Part shown: positions 35,283-53,019 of the stretch, piece by piece
Numbering within the stretch: the stretch's first letter is position 1
Layout of the letters: each line of letters begins with the position of its first letter
Assembly (NCBI GenBank): GCA_030692565.1
Contig: JAUYAO010000031.1
Location: 62,001 to 126,000, forward strand
From: Nitrospira sp.
GTDB lineage: Bacteria > Nitrospirota > Nitrospiria > Nitrospirales > Nitrospiraceae
Direction of reading: 5' to 3'
DNA length: 64,000 bases
The notes under the pieces: generated by a model
Database searches by the model: none
Told to the model about the DNA's origin: nothing
What the model saw: the letters and a program-made list of their open reading frames with translations, nothing else
Program-made: the position numbers and the translations under genes

Positions 35283-36476
35283 TCAGTCGGGCATGCCGTC
35301 AGTGGGCGGCTTCTGTGACGCGACCGCTGCCGATGGCCAGCTGAGGCCGGTTTTCGAGCTGTCATCCAGTTCCATTTTCGCGGCGAGCACGCGTAACAGA
35401 TGGTCGCGCGTGATCAGGCCCAACAGCCGGTCACCGGCGACAACCGGGACTTGATTGATGTCCTCGCCTTCCAGGATCTGCAACACGTTCAGGATCGGCG
35501 TCCCCGGCGCGACCGTCCGCACTGTCGCCGGAGGCGTCATGGCCTCGGCAACCGATACCTCCGACCAGCGCTCCTGCGGCACCGCTTTGACCTGATGCAG
35601 GGTGACCAATCCGTCCAGCCGGCTGCCGTCGGTCACGAGAAAGCATCGCTGCCCAGTCTTGAAGATATGTTCCTGTACCAACGCGGCGAGGCTCATCCGT
35701 CCGGTCACGGCCGGACAGTCTCGGGCCATCACATCTTCCGCCACCAACCCGGTCAACGCGGAGCGCACGCTGACTTGCACGACGCTCTCCTGCGCCGCGT
35801 TCAGAAGAAACCACCCGATGAACGCCAGCCACATCCCGTTGAACCAATTCACGGTGAAGCCGGTCCAGATGCCGATCACCATAAAGGCATATCCCACTGT
35901 CTGGCCTGTACCTGCCGCAATACGCGTGGCCTTGCTCAGACTGCCGGTAAAGTGCCAGAGGATAGCCCGGAAGATCCGCCCCCCGTCGAGCGGGAAGCCG
36001 GGCACGAGATTGAACAGCGTCAGCATCAGGTTGATCGACGCGAGCCAGCCGGCGAGCGCTGAGATCCGTTCAAACTCATCGCCGGCCAGAGAGGCGATCG
36101 TCCAGAAGCCGGCAGCCAGCAACGCGCTCGCCATCGGGCCGGCGACCGCGATCTGAAATTCCGTGAGCGGCCGGTCCGGCTCGCGGCCGATCTGAGCGAC
36201 GCCGCCGAAGACGAAGAGCGTGATGGAGCGGACCGGAATGCCCTTGGCCAGGGCGACGAAACTGTGCGCCAGTTCATGCAGTAGAATCGACGAGAAAAAC
36301 AGGAGACTCGTCAGAATTCCGACCGCATAATGCTCACTCTGTGTCCAGCGGGGATGCGCCGACGCGAACCGCCCGGTCAGGGAAAACGTGATGAGAAAAA
36401 AGATGATGAACCAGGAGTAATGGACGCCGATCTCGATCCCGCGGATGGTCGTCAGCTTCACGGATTGTCCGATCAT
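35283..36476 (-). CDS. Site-2 protease family protein with CBS pair
   Basis: A 397-residue membrane metalloprotease. The zinc-binding motif HELAH lies at residues 67-71 and the second metal ligand in NLVPGFPLDGGR (D164). After about six helices the C-terminal part has two CBS domains (VAEDVMARDCPAVTG and VAEAMTPPATVRTVAPG). S2P enzymes cut membrane-bound regulators such as anti-sigma factors. The CBS pair may sense adenine nucleotides, which is inference. AGAGGTG precedes the ATG at 36476. Substrate unknown; a membrane coiled-coil candidate lies at 44.3 kb. Confidence 0.87.
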   Translation of the reverse strand: MIGQSVKLTTIRGIEIGVHYSWFIIFFLITFSLTGRFASAHPRWTQSEHYAVGILTSLLFFSSILLHELAHSFVALAKGIPVRSITLFVFGGVAQIGREPDRPLTEFQIAVAGPMASALLAAGFWTIASLAGDEFERISALAGWLASINLMLTLFNLVPGFPLDGGRIFRAILWHFTGSLSKATRIAAGTGQTVGYAFMVIGIWTGFTVNWFNGMWLAFIGWFLLNAAQESVVQVSVRSALTGLVAEDVMARDCPAVTGRMSLAALVQEHIFKTGQRCFLVTDGSRLDGLVTLHQVKAVPQERWSEVSVAEAMTPPATVRTVAPGTPILNVLQILEGEDINQVPVVAGDRLLGLITRDHLLRVLAAKMELDDSSKTGLSWPSAAVASQKPPTDGMPD

Positions 36477-44303: not shown

Positions 44304-45569
44304 TTACCGGCTGACCCGCACCGCCTTCACGATCTGCGTCTGCTTCAGGCGATCCAAAAACCGCTCCATCGGTTCGGCCGGAGGGACGATCTCGACTGCC
44401 TGCCAGCCCTCGCTCAAGGCGCCTTTGCGGCCATGCATATCACGCACCCACTGGTCGATACTGTCCTGGCTGGTCCCTTCACTGAACGTTACCCAAAATA
44501 AGAACGGAGGCTGTTGTACGGCTTTCGCTTCCGCCACCGGCGGCGATTGAGACGGAGCAGTCTGCTGCGCTACGACCGTCTTCTCACGATCCGGGACCAC
44601 CGCCTTCGACACGTCGGGGCCGACTGTTTTCAGGCGTTTGCTCAGTTCCTGATTATGTTGTTCCAACTGAGCTCGTTCGCGGGCAAGCCGCTCGTTCGCG
44701 ATCACGAGGCTATGAATCTCGGCTTCCAGCTGCTCCTGCTCACTGAGGGCTTTGCTCATCAGCACGCGCGTCATACGATCGGTATCTCGGCCTGTCCCCT
44801 TCCGCCGTTGTTCGATCTCCTGCTTCACGGTCAGCACGCTGGACGCGACGGTTTCCTGGGTCGAGGACAATTTGGCCATCGTCCGCTGGAGTTGCGCCAT
44901 TCCCTGTTGCTGCGCCTGAATCGTATCGATCGCTTTCGATTGCATCTGCGCAAGTTCGCCGAGTTGCCGATCAAGCTTGGTCACTTCAACGAGCGGGGCC
45001 GCCCAGGGGACTTCTGCCTGCGTAACGGTCAACGGCGGCTTCACCGGCGTCATCCAGCCGGTGAACCGATCGGTAACTAGTCCGGCCAACGTGACGGCCA
45101 GCAGGATCTGTGTGAACACAAGTGCCCGGCCGCCAGTGCGGGGAACGGTGAGCGGATGCGGGACCGTGCCTCCGGCTACGCTGCTCCATGCTTGCCGCGC
45201 CCGGCTCCAGAACCCCTGCACAGGTTGAAACACGGCATTGACCGATCCGCCGCGCGCAGTATTATGAACGCGGAGTTCGACGGCGGCTCGTGTAAGGGCA
45301 ATGCGACAACTCCTGAATCCATACTCGGGAGCGGACAGTCCGCCGAGAAGCACACCATCTTCCGATCGCAGATGAACACTGTCAACGGAAGTCTGACTCT
45401 GAACCTGCAATGTGGCTTCGGCGCCCGCACTTTCCAACAAGCCGACGCGCCGCTGATTCACAAAGACATGGATCGGGTCAGATCCGCCGCAACCGGATCG
45501 CCGGGGCCCTGTCCGTATGGCATTCAGCAGGTGCTCGCGATAGCCTGAAAATTCGTGTTCGGAATCCAT
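44304..45569 (-). CDS. Single-pass membrane protein with long coiled coil, unknown function
   Basis: A 421-residue protein. The N-terminal cytoplasmic part (about 1-145) has a beta-rich segment (PIHVFVNQRRVGLLES), followed by one membrane helix (about 149-167), a long coiled coil (about 195-320, many Q, E and L) and a globular C-terminus ending RLKQTQIVKAVRVSR. GGAGGAGG precedes the ATG at 45569. It follows the sigma-like gene by 51 bp. A cytoplasmic domain, membrane span and extracytoplasmic sensor-like domain resemble an anti-sigma factor or S2P substrate, but this is inference. Confidence 0.6.
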   Translation of the reverse strand: MDSEHEFSGYREHLLNAIRTGPRRSGCGGSDPIHVFVNQRRVGLLESAGAEATLQVQSQTSVDSVHLRSEDGVLLGGLSAPEYGFRSCRIALTRAAVELRVHNTARGGSVNAVFQPVQGFWSRARQAWSSVAGGTVPHPLTVPRTGGRALVFTQILLAVTLAGLVTDRFTGWMTPVKPPLTVTQAEVPWAAPLVEVTKLDRQLGELAQMQSKAIDTIQAQQQGMAQLQRTMAKLSSTQETVASSVLTVKQEIEQRRKGTGRDTDRMTRVLMSKALSEQEQLEAEIHSLVIANERLARERAQLEQHNQELSKRLKTVGPDVSKAVVPDREKTVVAQQTAPSQSPPVAEAKAVQQPPFLFWVTFSEGTSQDSIDQWVRDMHGRKGALSEGWQAVEIVPPAEPMERFLDRLKQTQIVKAVRVSR

Positions 45570-45620
45570 ATCCTCCTCCTTCCCATTGCTTCCCACCGGC
45601 TTAACTTGACTCCACTCACC

Positions 45621-46499
45621 TTACGGCAGGAGCTGGAAAACCACGCGTGGCTTCTCCGTCACCGAAGCCCCGTCGAGCCCCAGATCCCAGGCCAACTGTA
45701 GACAATCCAGGCACAGAGCCAGATGCCAGATCCGGTATTCAACCCCGTAGCCCTCCAGAAACATGTCCTCCCACTGATGCCGGAGCAGGCAGGGATAATG
45801 GTCGGGCTCGCTCTTCCGATAATGAGCCTGCGCAAAACGCAGCAGGCGTTCGGCCTCGCCGTTGAACCGGTGTCGCTGCTGTTGCTGTTCGGTCAGCCCT
45901 TGCACGTCGGCTTCAGTGAAGCCGATATCATCAAGCGTGCGCTTCCATCCGCTCTCCCGCCATCGTTGAAAATTCTTGTAGATGCGCGGGCTCTCCGAAC
46001 CGTTCAACCGGAGCGCCGTAATCACCTGGCCGGGTCCTAACCCATAACAATGATGGTACAGGGCAATCAGCGCGTCACGGCTGACGACTGCGCGCCCTAC
46101 CAGTCCGTCAAGAAAGCGGCCAAGCGGCGTGAGCAGGTCCTTGTGATAGCAGAAGGGCTCCGGCCGGCTATGCTGTCTGGCTACCATCGAATCCAGCAGG
46201 AAGAGCGGACGGCAGGGCACCTCGCTCCGGCCCGACACGAGAAACTGTTCGAGATATTCCGCCCCCCAGCGCAGCACGAATTTTTCATGGGCGACATCGT
46301 CGCTCCACTGGCCGGTTTCCCGAAGAAAGCGTCTGGTATAGCCGGCCGCCCGGTCGAGCAACAGGGGCAGCGATTGCGAGACAACCCGGTCGAAGTCCTC
46401 GGCAGTCGACACCACTTCTTCAAGACGGCCGACAGCCGTCATGCGATCCGACATGGCACGGTCTCTATTGAGCATATGGGATTGTCCAATGGAATTCAT
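45621..46499 (-). CDS. Putative sigma-like/HTH regulatory protein
   Basis: A 292-residue cytoplasmic protein that I do not recognise firmly. A central segment (VSRDALIALYHHCYGLGPGQ, then VITALRLNGSESPRIYKNFQ RWRESGWKR) has the look of a sigma region 4-type helix-turn-helix, with an ALIALYHHCY lead-in. An N-terminal helical segment (SLPLLLDRAAGYTRRFLRET) could be region-2-like. AGGAG lies six bases before the ATG at 46499. It is followed by the membrane coiled-coil protein and divergent from a repeat peptide, with an 11-bp inverted repeat in between. It might instead be a phage-like or unrelated DNA-binding protein. Confidence 0.5.
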   Translation of the reverse strand: MNSIGQSHMLNRDRAMSDRMTAVGRLEEVVSTAEDFDRVVSQSLPLLLDRAAGYTRRFLRETGQWSDDVAHEKFVLRWGAEYLEQFLVSGRSEVPCRPLFLLDSMVARQHSRPEPFCYHKDLLTPLGRFLDGLVGRAVVSRDALIALYHHCYGLGPGQVITALRLNGSESPRIYKNFQRWRESGWKRTLDDIGFTEADVQGLTEQQQQRHRFNGEAERLLRFAQAHYRKSEPDHYPCLLRHQWEDMFLEGYGVEYRIWHLALCLDCLQLAWDLGLDGASVTEKPRVVFQLLP

Positions 46500-46527
46500 T
46501 GTGTCTCCTTCCCGATCTGCGCGCATT

Positions 46528-46562
46528 GGACAAAAGCGGCTATTCATTCGGCGCTTTTGTCC
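46528..46562. promoter_or_regulatory. Perfect 11-bp inverted repeat in a divergent intergenic region
   Basis: GGACAAAAGCG (46528-46538) and CGCTTTTGTCC (46552-46562) are exact complements around a 13-base spacer. It lies 29-63 bases upstream of the sigma-like gene's start and about 107 bases before the repeat peptide. Because the genes diverge, an operator or regulatory hairpin is likelier than a terminator. Confidence 0.55.
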
Positions 46563-46655
46563 GTTGTACCGACTGCGGCCCGCTTGATAAAGATTCGATA
46601 TCGGTTATGCGTGGGGCATGACCGGAACAATATTTTCACCTTATTTTTCATTTAT

Positions 46656-46668: not shown

Positions 46669-46893
46669 ATGACACGCTTCAACGGATTGATGGCCTTGGT
46701 GGCGTTCCTCAGCTTCAGCACGATGTCCACGCTCGCCCTGGCCGATGAGGATAAGAAAGAAGAGAAGAAGGACAAGGGCGGCCACGTGGTCGTGTTCGGC
46801 GACGATAAGAAGGAAGAGCACAAGGACAAGGGCGGCCATGTGGTGCTCAGCGACGACAAGAAGGATGAGAAGAAGGACCAGGGCAGCAAGTAG
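46669..46893 (+). CDS. Small exported lysine/aspartate-rich repeat protein
   Basis: A 74-residue protein with a signal peptide (about 1-26, ending LALADED) and a mature part made of imperfect tandem repeats of DDKKEExKDKGGHVV (about residues 27-42, 46-60 and 62-74). It is highly charged, with regularly spaced histidines. The ATG at 46669 has GGAGG eight bases upstream. It is transcribed away from the sigma-like gene. It may bind metal, sequester water or act as a small matrix protein; the family is not recognised. Confidence 0.55.
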   Translation: MTRFNGLMALVAFLSFSTMSTLALADEDKKEEKKDKGGHVVVFGDDKKEEHKDKGGHVVLSDDKKDEKKDQGSK

Positions 46894-48120: not shown

Positions 48121-48940
48121 GCTCCGCTTCCTTGTGTGGAGTCATCGCCGGTCGATCGGCGTGCTGGCCCTGTTCCGGTGTCCGATCCAGGCGATGGATC
48201 AGAAACCGCAGGACATCTTCGATCTCCCCTTGATGCTTGATGTACAACTTCGCACGGGACCCGGCGTGCTGTCCAACCCGCACACCCATAACCAGCCCCT
48301 CCGTCAGTCCAAACACATCCTCGTCCGTCTCGTCATCTCCGATGAAGAAGAAGCCTGACTGGCGAAGATGCCGCATCAATGCGAGGGCCGCCCCCCCCTT
48401 GCCGCCTTTCCCCGGAGGCAAGAGATTGATCGATTGTTTCCCGATGACCAGACGAGGAGCCGGGCTCAGCTGAGTCAGCAGCGCCAGCACAGCCAGACGG
48501 ACGCGGTCCTGGTCTTCATGTTCCCGATAGTGCAACGTCAGTGAATACCGCTTGTCCTCCACATCAATGCCGAGATCCGCCAACTGCGGCGCCAGCTCCC
48601 CCTTGATCGCCGCTCTCCACCCGGCACAGATCCCATCGGCCCACAGGAGCGTCACCGATGGCGTCAACGGACTTTCCAACCCGTGGTTGCCGATCAGATA
48701 CGGAACGGCCCCGTTCACTCTCGGGGCCAGGTCGCTGAGCGCCCGTCCCGAGATCACGGCACAGGGAGCGCGCTTGGCCAGCTCCACCAGCCATTCATGG
48801 ATCGAGCGGGTGAGTTTGACCGACTCACGATCCGGAGAAATCTTGGCCAGCGTCCCGTCAAAATCGAAGGCGTAGAGCATCGGCCCGCCGGCGAGGGCTC
48901 TCATCGCTTCCCGTCCCTCAGGCGAGAGCAAATATATCAT
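48110..48940 (-). CDS. otsB: Trehalose-6-phosphate phosphatase
   Basis: A 276-residue HAD-family phosphatase. Its motif I FDFDGTL (D26, D28) and motif IV GDDETDEDVF are typical of trehalose-phosphatases. It removes phosphate from trehalose 6-phosphate in the cytoplasm. The ATG overlaps the otsA stop by 4 bp and the C-terminus overlaps the lipoprotein start. Together with otsA it forms the OtsAB trehalose pathway, an osmotic and desiccation response. Confidence 0.93.
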   Translation of the reverse strand: MIYLLSPEGREAMRALAGGPMLYAFDFDGTLAKISPDRESVKLTRSIHEWLVELAKRAPCAVISGRALSDLAPRVNGAVPYLIGNHGLESPLTPSVTLLWADGICAGWRAAIKGELAPQLADLGIDVEDKRYSLTLHYREHEDQDRVRLAVLALLTQLSPAPRLVIGKQSINLLPPGKGGKGGAALALMRHLRQSGFFFIGDDETDEDVFGLTEGLVMGVRVGQHAGSRAKLYIKHQGEIEDVLRFLIHRLDRTPEQGQHADRPAMTPHKEAEHDG

Positions 48941-51186
48941 GCCTGTCCTCCTGTGATCGTCCGCACATCCCTGGCCCCAGTCTGGCGCACGATGCGGGCG
49001 CGTTGCCGCATGCGGGCGGCATCCATCAGCATCCGGCCGGCCCAGCGGTACACGTTAAACTCCTGGACGATCCCGCGCATGCTGCGCATCCGCGCCCGCT
49101 GTTCGGTCGGCGCCATGGTGAGCGCCAGATGCATGGCCGCCGCGCATTGATCGATATTGTACGGATTGATGAGCACCGCTTCAGGCAGCTCCGTCGCCGC
49201 CCCGGTGAATTGGCTGAGAATCAGCACGCCCTGCTCGTCGTCGCGCGCGGCGACGAATTCCTTCGCGACGAGATTCATGCCGTCATGAAGACTGCTGACG
49301 ATGCAGAAGTCCGCGCCTCGGTAATAGACGCTGACATCCTGCGGCTCGTGATGCTCGATCCGCACTTGAATGGGGCAATAGCCTTCCCGGCCGAATCGCG
49401 CGTTGATGCGTTCCGCCGACGCCAGCACATTCCGGCTGAACTGTTGATACTCCTCGATTTTCGATCGGCTCGGGGCGGCAATCTGGACAAACGAAAAACG
49501 ACCGATCCATTCCGGCTGCAGTTCCAGTAGTCGTTCCACCGCGAGGAACCGCTCGAGGATGCCTTTGGTATAGTCGAGCCGCTCGACGCCGACGCCGACG
49601 CGATGGGTGTGTGGAAGCGTATTCAACGTGCGAATGCGGGTTTTGCACTCGGAGACCGGCGGCAGCTGCGCCATCTGCTGCCCGGGCCATGCGATAGAGA
49701 TCGGGTAAGGATTTACGGCCGTCATTTTCCCTTGATAAGAAATAGTGGAGCTGTCGCGGTCGATTCTCGTTTCGAGTGACCGGTCCACCGTCTCGATGAA
49801 GTTGCTGCAATGAAAGCGCGTGTGAAATCCGAGAATGCTGCTCCCCAGGAGCCCTTCAAGAATGTCCCGATACCAGGGACAGATGGCATAGCGCTCCGGG
49901 TTGGGCCAGGGAATGTGCCAGAAGGTGATGATCGTCGCGTTCGGCAAATGGTCGCGCACCATTTTCGGCACCAGCGCGAGGTGATAATCCTGGACGAGCA
50001 CGACCGGATTATCGGTCTTGGCCTCCTCAATGATGGCCAGGGCGAACCGCTCATTGATCTCTTTGTAATGCTGCCAGTCAGAAGAACGAAAGACTGGCCG
50101 GACGTGAGCCAGGTGGCAGAGCGGCCAGAGGCCTTCGTTGGCAAATCCATAGTAATAGCCGGCCTCTTCTTCCGCTGACATCCAGATCCGTCTGATTTCG
50201 TATTCGGGATGGTCCGGCGGTACGCGGACATGGCCCCGCGCATCAACGACCTCCCGATCGGCGGTCCCGCTGCCGTGCGCGATCCACACCCCGGAACAGG
50301 CGCGCATGACCGGCTCCAGCGCGGTGACCACCCCGCTGGCCGGCACCTGCACTTCGAGCTGCTGATCGTGCCAATTGTGAATATAGGGTTCACGGTTAGA
50401 GACGATGAGCACTTCGTCGCCCGCGAGGTGGTCGTGGAGAATGGTCTTCAGTGTGGCAGGTGTCCAGCTCATCTGGCTTTCGTCCCGCATGCGTTTGTCC
50501 GCCTCGAGATCGTGTATGAGGGCGCGAAGATCCTGGGCGACCGGATGCATGTCGGCGCCGGGCTTCGGCTCTCCGATCAAGGCGACCAAGCCTTCCCCCC
50601 GAAGCATCGACCGCACACCTGCGATCCATCCCCGCCAACTCAGATGCGCGACCAGAACCGTCACCAGTGAGATCACGCCGCCGATGACGGCGAAGAGATA
50701 AAAGAGATACCATTTGGTGTCGCTGCTACGCCGCTCGATCCAGCTCATGTCGTGGACGAGCATGAGGCGCCCCCAGTCCCTGCCGTTCCCTTCGATGCCC
50801 ACGGCGGCGACATGAACAGCCCCCTGGGAGAGACGCAGGAGGGCCGTCTGACCTGCTTTGAGCGTACTCGCACCATCACAGGATATCGAGTCGGGGTACG
50901 TGAGAGTCTTGTAGATCAATTTGCCGTCACGGTCGCAAAATCCGACGGCGTACAGCCGTTCGTCCTGAATGATCCGATGGAAGTAGTTCAGCAGCTTGGT
51001 CTTCGACTCTGTCGCCAGAAGATCGACCAGAGGACTTTCGACCATGCGGCCGATCAGGGCCGACCGGATTTCGAGATCCCGCACGAACCATTTGAGCGTC
51101 AACGTATCGACAAGAGGAATAACGGCATAAGCCAGACCCGCCAGCACCAGGGCCAGCGGCAACAGGAATCGCAGCGATAACCGCAT
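48937..51186 (-). CDS. otsA: Trehalose-6-phosphate synthase (GT20) with N-terminal membrane sensor-like domain
   Basis: A 749-residue protein: a helix at 5-27, a periplasmic domain of about 130 residues (30-157), a second helix (about 159-181), then a cytoplasmic linker and the GT20 synthase domain (about 255-725). Core motifs are [32 protein letters not shown] and [14 protein letters not shown]. coli OtsA is 474 residues, so about 245 extra residues form the membrane and periplasmic part. It makes trehalose 6-phosphate from UDP- or GDP/ADP-glucose and glucose 6-phosphate. It is translationally coupled to otsB. Confidence 0.93.
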
Positions 51187-51234: not shown

Positions 51235-53019
51235 ATGTATCCCTACGGCCTTGTCGGCAATTGCCAAACCTCGGCGCTGATCGGCTTGAACGGCAGCGTG
51301 GAATGGATGTGCGCGCCCCGCCCGGACAGTCCTCCGGTCTTCGGCCGGCTGCTGGATCCGGACGGCGGGCATTTTTCGATCTCGAGCCCCCTCGCGCCCT
51401 CCGGCCTCAGGTCCGAGCAGCGCTATCTGCCGAACACGAACATTCTGATCACCACCGTCACGTTGCCGAACGGCGACGCCTTCCGGATCACCGACTTCTG
51501 TCCGCGTTTCGAACAATACGGCCGTATCTACCGGCCGTCGGCCCTGTTCCGGATGGTCGAACCGCTCCAGGGCACTCCGGCGATCCGGGTCAACTGCTGT
51601 CCGGTTTCCGGCTGGGAGAAGACTCCGGTGCAACCCGTGCGAGGCAGCAACCACCTCCGCTACGAGATTCGCGGTGACGTCCTCCGGCTGCTGACCAACA
51701 TGCCGCTGACCTACCTCTGCGAAGAGATCCCGATGGCGCTGACACAGAAATTCTATTTCGCCATGACCTGGGGACTCGGCATCGAAGACGATCTCATCAA
51801 GGTCACGCACGACTTTCTGGAGCAGACCGCCCGCTATTGGCGCATCTGGGTGAAGAACTGTTCGGTGCCGCTGCTGCACCAACAGGAAGTCATCCGCTCG
51901 GCCCTGGCGCTCAAGCTGCACTGTTTCGAAGACACGGGAGCCATCCTGGCGGCCCTCACGACGAGCCTTCCGGAACAGCCGGGCGGACAGCGCAACTGGG
52001 ATTACCGGTTTTGCTGGCTGCGCGATGCCTATTTTGCGCTCACGGCATTTCATAACCTGGGCCATTTCGAAGAGATGGAAGCCTTCCTGAAATTCCTGCT
52101 GAACATTGCGCATACGCATGAACATTCCCGCGACCGGCTACGGCCGGTGTACACGCTCAGCCAAGGATTGCCGCTTCCCGAGACGGAGCATCCGAATTGG
52201 TCCGGCTACCAGAACAGCCGACCGGTGCGCAGCTACAATCAGGCCGCGGAGCACGTGCAGAACGACGCCTACGCCGAAATGATCCTGACCTTCACGCCGA
52301 TCTTCTTCGACGAACGGTATGTCGATTTGCGCACGCGAGATCTCGATGCCCTGCTGGCGCATCTGGCGAAACTGTGCGTCCGCAGTATCGGCCAGCCGGA
52401 TGCCGGTCTCTGGGAGATTCGCAACGGCTGGCAGGAGCATTCCTTCACGAATCTGCTGTGCTGGGCCGGACTCGAACGATTGGAACGGATCAAACAGGCC
52501 GGGCATCTCCCCTCCGTCTCGACCGGCCTCACGGCCGGACGCATCCAGGCGGAAGACGCCTTGCTCCGCGCCGTCCGCGAGGGAGCCGTTCGGAACGGTC
52601 CCACCGACCCCAGTTTCGACGCCGCGCTGGCCCAGCTGCCCATCCTCGGCTACCCGAATCGCCCCCTGTGCGAGTCGACGGTCACCCACATCACCCGCGA
52701 GCTGTCGCTCCGCATCGGAGGCGAGGATACCGGCTTCTTCTACCGCTATGTGCGGAACGACGACTTCGGAAAGCCGGAGGGTGCCTTCGTCATCTGCTCG
52801 TTCTGGATCGCCCAGGCCCTCGCTCGCCTGGGATGCGTGGACGAAGCACGGACGATCCTCGACCGCGTACTGACGGCGTCCAATCATGTCGGGCTGTTTT
52901 CCGAACACTTCATTCCCTCCACAAACACCCAGTGCGGAAACTTTCCCCAGGCCTACTCCCACGTCGGCCTCATCAATGCCGCGTTCGCCGTCAGTCCTCC
53001 CTGGAGCGATGTGCTCTGA
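51235..53019 (+). CDS. GH15 glycoside hydrolase, copy 2
   Basis: A 594-residue GH15-type protein with YGLVGNCQTSALIGLNGSVE at the start, the catalytic-barrel segment RNWDYRFCWLRDAYF (253-267) and GNFPQAYSHVGLINAA at the end. No signal peptide. It diverges from otsA with 48 bp between start codons, so the two share a promoter region. As GH15 members include trehalases and glucoamylases, it may balance trehalose or glycogen. Few other plus-strand genes interrupt the minus-strand run of the middle of the window. Confidence 0.88.
   Translation: MYPYGLVGNCQTSALIGLNGSVEWMCAPRPDSPPVFGRLLDPDGGHFSISSPLAPSGLRSEQRYLPNTNILITTVTLPNGDAFRITDFCPRFEQYGRIYRPSALFRMVEPLQGTPAIRVNCCPVSGWEKTPVQPVRGSNHLRYEIRGDVLRLLTNMPLTYLCEEIPMALTQKFYFAMTWGLGIEDDLIKVTHDFLEQTARYWRIWVKNCSVPLLHQQEVIRSALALKLHCFEDTGAILAALTTSLPEQPGGQRNWDYRFCWLRDAYFALTAFHNLGHFEEMEAFLKFLLNIAHTHEHSRDRLRPVYTLSQGLPLPETEHPNWSGYQNSRPVRSYNQAAEHVQNDAYAEMILTFTPIFFDERYVDLRTRDLDALLAHLAKLCVRSIGQPDAGLWEIRNGWQEHSFTNLLCWAGLERLERIKQAGHLPSVSTGLTAGRIQAEDALLRAVREGAVRNGPTDPSFDAALAQLPILGYPNRPLCESTVTHITRELSLRIGGEDTGFFYRYVRNDDFGKPEGAFVICSFWIAQALARLGCVDEARTILDRVLTASNHVGLFSEHFIPSTNTQCGNFPQAYSHVGLINAAFAVSPPWSDVL

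Follow-up and report, generated by a model that had tools for sequence, protein, structure and literature searches.

A conserved palindromic element beside a candidate sigma-like regulator gene and a membrane-protein gene in Nitrospira

ECF sigma factors with fused anti-sigma or zinc extensions are known from the groups ECF48, ECF52 and ECF53 (PMC8999054). In ECF48, ECF53 and the ECF52 protein SCO4117, a sigma-like region is followed in one polypeptide by a C-terminal zinc-finger-like motif, and regulation is linked to the membrane (PMC8999054). The same order of parts is suggested for P1, the first of two adjacently encoded Nitrospira proteins described here. These three groups, however, have membrane helices fused to the sigma factor, whereas the membrane part of the present locus is the product of a separate gene, P2. 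Also unlike them, the sigma domains of P1 stay below every curated cut-off and the site upstream of its gene is palindromic. The metal-sensing proteins CorE and CorE2 (ECF238) resemble P1 as ECF-like proteins with a Cys-containing regulatory domain at the C-terminus. In CorE, a Cys-rich domain is combined with a CxC linker motif (PMC8999054), whereas P1 carries just one HC2-type ligand set and is encoded beside a membrane protein. The spacing C-x21-H-x3-C-x2-C of P1 fits ZAS / zf-HC2 domains, with all four residues invariant, but unlike ZAS / zf-HC2 as a separate protein the motif is joined to a sigma-like part and scores below the Pfam cut-off. Finally, classical pairs of an ECF sigma factor and a membrane anti-sigma factor share with P1 and P2 the arrangement of adjacent genes for a cytoplasmic regulator and then a single-span membrane protein; they differ in that P2 has no recognised anti-sigma domain and was not detected adjacent to P1 in sister families. 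As ECF sigma factors carrying a fused zinc domain are known, these are the closest kind described, of which a palindromic operator with a separate membrane partner would be a variant. A literature search revealed no paper on the P1-P2 pair among the listed titles and abstracts.

Nitrospira are key nitrite oxidisers and include complete ammonia oxidisers; to our knowledge, little is known about their stress regulation. The stretch of DNA analysed (the window) comprises 64,000 nt of Nitrospira sp. GCA_030692565.1 (contig JAUYAO010000031.1, positions 62,001 to 126,000; genome of 4.17 Mb) and includes the following features:

35283-36476, about 8 kb away: site-2 protease-like gene, identified by reading of its sequence
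44304-45569, minus strand: P2, 421 residues from the ATG at 45569, one predicted membrane span and a coiled coil
45621-46499, minus strand: P1, 292 residues, ATG at 46499, with a Shine-Dalgarno sequence 5' of the start
46524-46566, no strand: full conserved element with flanks, CAAYGGACAAA-N20/21-TTTGTCCAATG as read on the P1 strand
46528-46562, no strand: inverted repeat (IR1), palindromic candidate operator with core GGACAAA...TTTGTCC
46669-46893, plus strand: secreted hydrophilic Lys/Asp/Gly-rich repeat peptide, divergent, across the operator from P1
48110-48940, minus strand: trehalose-6-phosphate phosphatase
48937-51186, minus strand: trehalose-6-phosphate synthase
51235-53019, plus strand: GH15 trehalase-like enzyme, its gene pointing away from that for trehalose synthase

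P1 and P2 are open frames, both with good ribosome-binding sites, and a sequence-only reading of the window had located them, the inverted repeat and the divergent peptide correctly; the peptide starts at 46669, with an earlier in-frame start at 46618. The peptide consists of KKDEKKDKGGHVVVFGD-type units and is hydrophilin-like. In the window, P2 is followed by a histidine kinase and response regulator pair.

The sequence of P1 suggests three regions:

P1 residues ~33-112: predicted sigma2-like region
P1 residues ~135-192: predicted sigma4-like helix-turn-helix (HTH)
P1 residues ~210-292: predicted zinc-binding, HC2-like region

As had been anticipated, the curated libraries assign neither protein to a family. 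P1 and its homologue sets (n = 34 and n = 21) gave no Pfam or NCBIfam match, sigma families included, and no Sigma70 region 2 or region 4 domain exceeded the curated cut-offs. There was no meaningful sequence match in the PDB either, where profiles gave weak matches to unrelated proteins or coiled coils. The sigma-like character proposed earlier nevertheless found some support in a profile of aligned ECF sigma factors from the same genome and its relatives. Locally, the P1 family scored 24.8 against this profile (P = 0.0049), which was reached by none of 300 shuffled alignments (maximum 23.1). Globally, residues 33-192 scored 16.8 (P = 0.003, HH probability 4%), with a null of 4.8 (sd 2.8, maximum 16.35) and none of 200 shuffles reaching that score. 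The HTH part by itself gave P = 0.0018, with two of 100 block shuffles reaching the score. The resemblance to ECF sigma factors thus appears weak but reproducible from end to end, and it is taken as a lead rather than as proof, since the HH-suite probabilities of the P1 profile comparisons are low (4-15% here, 4-23% overall). LuxR-type regulators, used as a control, gave P = 0.45 over the full length and 0.23 for the HTH region, and there was no Pfam GerE match; identification of P1 as a LuxR-type HTH regulator was rejected because neither the profile nor the Pfam tests revealed a GerE-like HTH.

The C-terminal third of P1 is characterized by the residues C237, H259, C263 and C266, which do not vary among 34 homologues or among a broader set of 21. 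From this zf-HC2-like ligand spacing we infer that P1 binds zinc. Comparison of the C-terminus with zf-HC2 proteins gave P = 0.0009, a score beyond all column shuffles but one that the block-shuffle null does reach, and no match to PF13490 (zf-HC2) exceeded the cut-off. The structure search that had been suggested was uninformative: AlphaFold modelling from a 9-sequence alignment yielded an unusable model (pLDDT 41), and the Foldseek hits of that model to the ECF/sigma chains 4cxf, 8z6g, 8x6g and 6n61 (E 4-9) are not counted as evidence.

P2 is modelled with a confident beta-sandwich (residues 30-118), a hydrophobic helix (~145-171) at low confidence, a coiled coil (~193-321) and a small, poorly modelled C-terminal region. 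Basic residues precede the span, suggesting that the N-terminus lies inside the cell. Pfam and NCBIfam gave only coiled-coil noise for P2, PDB sequence profiles gave weak unrelated or coiled-coil matches, and Foldseek on the model returned nothing at E 0.001. VIA-align gave Z 6.9 for the coiled coil and Z 5.8 (rmsd 2.9, 77 aligned residues) for C2-like beta-sandwiches, the level of a common structural arrangement. The earlier comparison of the pair with a sigma/anti-sigma layout finds no domain support on the side of P2: family scans recognise no anti-sigma domain in it, its cytoplasmic part being a predicted beta-sandwich, and two sister families have P1 with no P2 detected adjacent to it. 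The anti-sigma-like zinc motif is located in the C-terminus of P1 instead.

In the inverted repeat, 13 nt separate two arms that match exactly over 11 bp (46528-46538 and 46552-46562); no such repeat appeared in 100 dinucleotide shuffles of the window. A regulon was sought in the genome itself by pattern searches, and the exact arm pair occurs a single time in the 4.17 Mb; the genome-wide scan proposed earlier thus gave no second exact copy, but the element is conserved in relatives. The conserved part of the arms in these relatives is only the outer 7 bp, GGACAAA/TTTGTCC, plus the flanking CAAY/AATG, so that the description as an exact 11-bp repeat is true of this genome and the inner 4 bp of its arms are partly accidental. 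Nearly all Nitrospira-type loci carry the element 5' of P1, with a span from GGACAAA to TTTGTCC of 34 or 35 bp, and in most of them it ends ~24 nt from the P1 start codon. Over 31 distinct sites, conservation amounts to 1.80 bits per position in the left arm and 1.74 in the right arm, compared with 0.56 in the spacer and, outside the element, 0.41 on its upstream and 0.54 on its downstream side. More distant genera retain degenerate forms, and sister family f3 has GTACAAA-like-N-TTTGTAC in similar geometry, with both arms altered alike. The repeat is a real conserved element and not a product of chance; its conservation across genera, the parallel arm change in the sister family and a second copy (see below) strongly support its earlier reading as an operator. 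Two degenerate palindrome copies were seen 5' of P1 in genus g5 (L080:8232 and L080:8530).

The element is a symmetric inverted repeat with 20-21 nt between its arms. A -35/-10 promoter located in the arms was ruled out by this spacing, as such promoters have ~16-17 nt. Sigma factors do not recognise symmetric palindromes. We do not class P1 among the ECF sigma factors because both the Sigma70 cut-offs and the form of the promoter were tested: no domain of P1 reaches the former, and the upstream element is not of the -35/-10 type.

P1 was found in 69 of the 118 genomes of the family and in 15 of its 22 genera, and is present in single copy in the window genome. In named records its relatives belong to Nitrospira and Nitrospirota, including N. 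moscoviensis NSP M-1. A search of the phylum found clear homologues outside the family solely within the same order, with two copies in some genomes there, and none was found on plasmids. Wherever the available flanks are long enough, family loci have P2 adjoining P1. Family f3 and genus g26 (family f2) do possess P1, but no P2 was detected beside it there. Two f3 loci (L157 and L159) contain second, more diverged P1 copies, apparently lacking both the palindrome and P2.

A second palindromic site, A[CG]TGGACATAT-N-TTTTGTCCGTTGAG with single-base exceptions, was identified in all 16 genomes examined from Nitrospira lineages, located 82-245 bp past the P2 stop codon. A family-4 glycosyltransferase gene begins 189-227 bp further on, and MFS transporter genes follow that gene:

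L087:9204-9244, equivalents in L063, L068, L086 and L180-L193: second palindrome copy, between P2 and the family-4 glycosyltransferase operon

Forms of this site also occur in L063 and L068, and a weaker one in G056, the genome most closely related to that of the window; in the window itself, the glycosyltransferase operon is absent at this place. Scanning 775 kb with a position weight matrix (PWM) returned the P1-linked sites, the second element close to P2 and a few weaker sites, and one Markov-shuffled copy of the 775 kb contained no site above 13 bits. As the P1 sites had served as the training set, it is the recovery of the second element that counts as the independent result.

The divergent repeat peptide gene is kept in several genera. 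Nine genera have a gene resembling glucosyl-3-phosphoglycerate synthase downstream in the same orientation. It usually comes straight after P2, or straight after P1 in g26, where P2 is lacking. Matches to the GpgS models are strong (E ~1e-101 to 1e-106) yet below the equivalog cut-off. In some genera a second glycosyltransferase gene and a mechanosensitive channel gene accompany it:

L164:7511-10029 and L079:8682-11961, 3' of P1(-P2): GpgS-like genes and mechanosensitive channel gene

Trehalose-6-phosphate synthase, phosphatase or GH15 trehalase-like genes are found nearby in the window lineage, g9, N. moscoviensis and g5. This gene neighbourhood suggests compatible-solute protection as the output of the module. 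The site-2 protease to which attention had been drawn is indeed present, but a synteny check found none near P1-P2 in other genomes, and the link was rejected for that reason.

We propose, at about even chances, that P1 and P2 form a conserved Nitrospira-type module in which a sigma-like autoregulator, a membrane partner and the palindrome act in osmolyte or envelope stress. P1 would be a cytoplasmic DNA-binding regulator of remotely ECF-sigma-like build, with a sigma2-like region, a linker and a sigma4-like HTH, and its zinc-binding, anti-sigma-like C-terminus may restrain it. P2 could retain P1 through its cytoplasmic beta-sandwich and sense an envelope or osmotic signal through its outer coiled coil. 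P1 would bind, probably as a dimer, the ~42-bp palindrome between its own gene and that of the peptide, and would by this binding control itself, P2 and the peptide; in some lineages it may also control the glycosyltransferase operon through the second palindrome copy. The output would likely be compatible-solute or envelope stress protection. P1 is taken as the binder of the palindrome because it is the most likely candidate among the cytoplasmic parts of the module and because family genomes without P1 contain no clear element, having only isolated 3-mismatch matches and some exact-core matches. This absence is partly trivial, as the element sits in the promoter region of P1 itself. Of the exact-core matches elsewhere in the family, several (at least two) lie inside one response-regulator coding gene and were rejected as coincidence.

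The same observations can be read in other ways. The palindrome might be the operator of an unrelated dimeric regulator encoded elsewhere, with P1-P2 and the peptide as mere targets and P1 as a cytoplasmic effector that does not bind DNA. Dimeric regulators typically have palindromes with half-sites of roughly 11-12 bp, as has this element, P1 matches no DNA-binding family and its link with the site is indirect; against this, the HTH-like segment of P1 can be aligned to sigma4 and P1-less family genomes are without a clear element, partly as expected from its position. We consider this alternative doubtful, though plausible enough to carry real weight. It is rather unlikely that P1 is a genuine, if highly diverged, ECF sigma factor that carries a zinc anti-sigma domain as a fusion, is set free by P2 and recruits RNA polymerase to its own promoters. 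The end-to-end profile likeness, the HC2-like C-terminus and the fused anti-sigma extensions of ECF48, ECF52 and ECF53 (PMC8999054) agree with such a role, whereas the lack of a Sigma70 domain match at any curated cut-off and an inverted repeat in place of an asymmetric -35/-10 promoter speak against it. As to promoter architecture, autoregulation is usual, though not universal, among ECF factors, and P1 may have a further promoter of unrecognised form.

It is very improbable that the repeat works as a hairpin in the leader RNA of P1 instead of as a DNA site. The strand folds more stably than shuffled sequences in the window (z -3.3), L060 (-3.3) and L087 (-3.1), but other genomes show no excess stability and the second copy stands in a different gene context. 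Moreover, flank positions are conserved while unpaired (A.A in 34 of 41 sites, with a C.A mismatch at the next position in 21 of 41), which favours recognition of sequence in DNA over an RNA stem, and double-sided changes are almost absent in this family.

Returning to the proposed P1-P2 module, its conserved palindrome, often near protective-sugar genes, points to a stress-control module that has not been described. The more specific idea, that a sigma-like protein with a built-in zinc anti-sigma-like domain has turned into a palindrome-binding autoregulator and, with a membrane coiled-coil partner, controls compatible-solute protection, is a tentative one to which we give limited credence. 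If P1 is sigma-like and does bind the palindrome, it would exemplify the way in which a sigma fold that contains a zinc domain can become a transcription factor. With a single-copy candidate in more than half of the sampled family genomes, an operator of ~42 bp and predicted targets, the circuit is directly testable.

Some palindromes were also observed away from P1. In L194 near 2788 (G114:C33:38790-38823), an exact-core palindrome lies directly 5' of an MFS transporter gene. Two f3 loci (L158 near 1850 and L161 near 1926) share an orthologous weak palindrome, CATGGATAAAAC...CTTGTCTATT, several kb from P1. In two g18 genomes, a palindrome orthologous between the two is located just 3' of a galT-like gene (L033:1501-1533 and L034:1501-1533).
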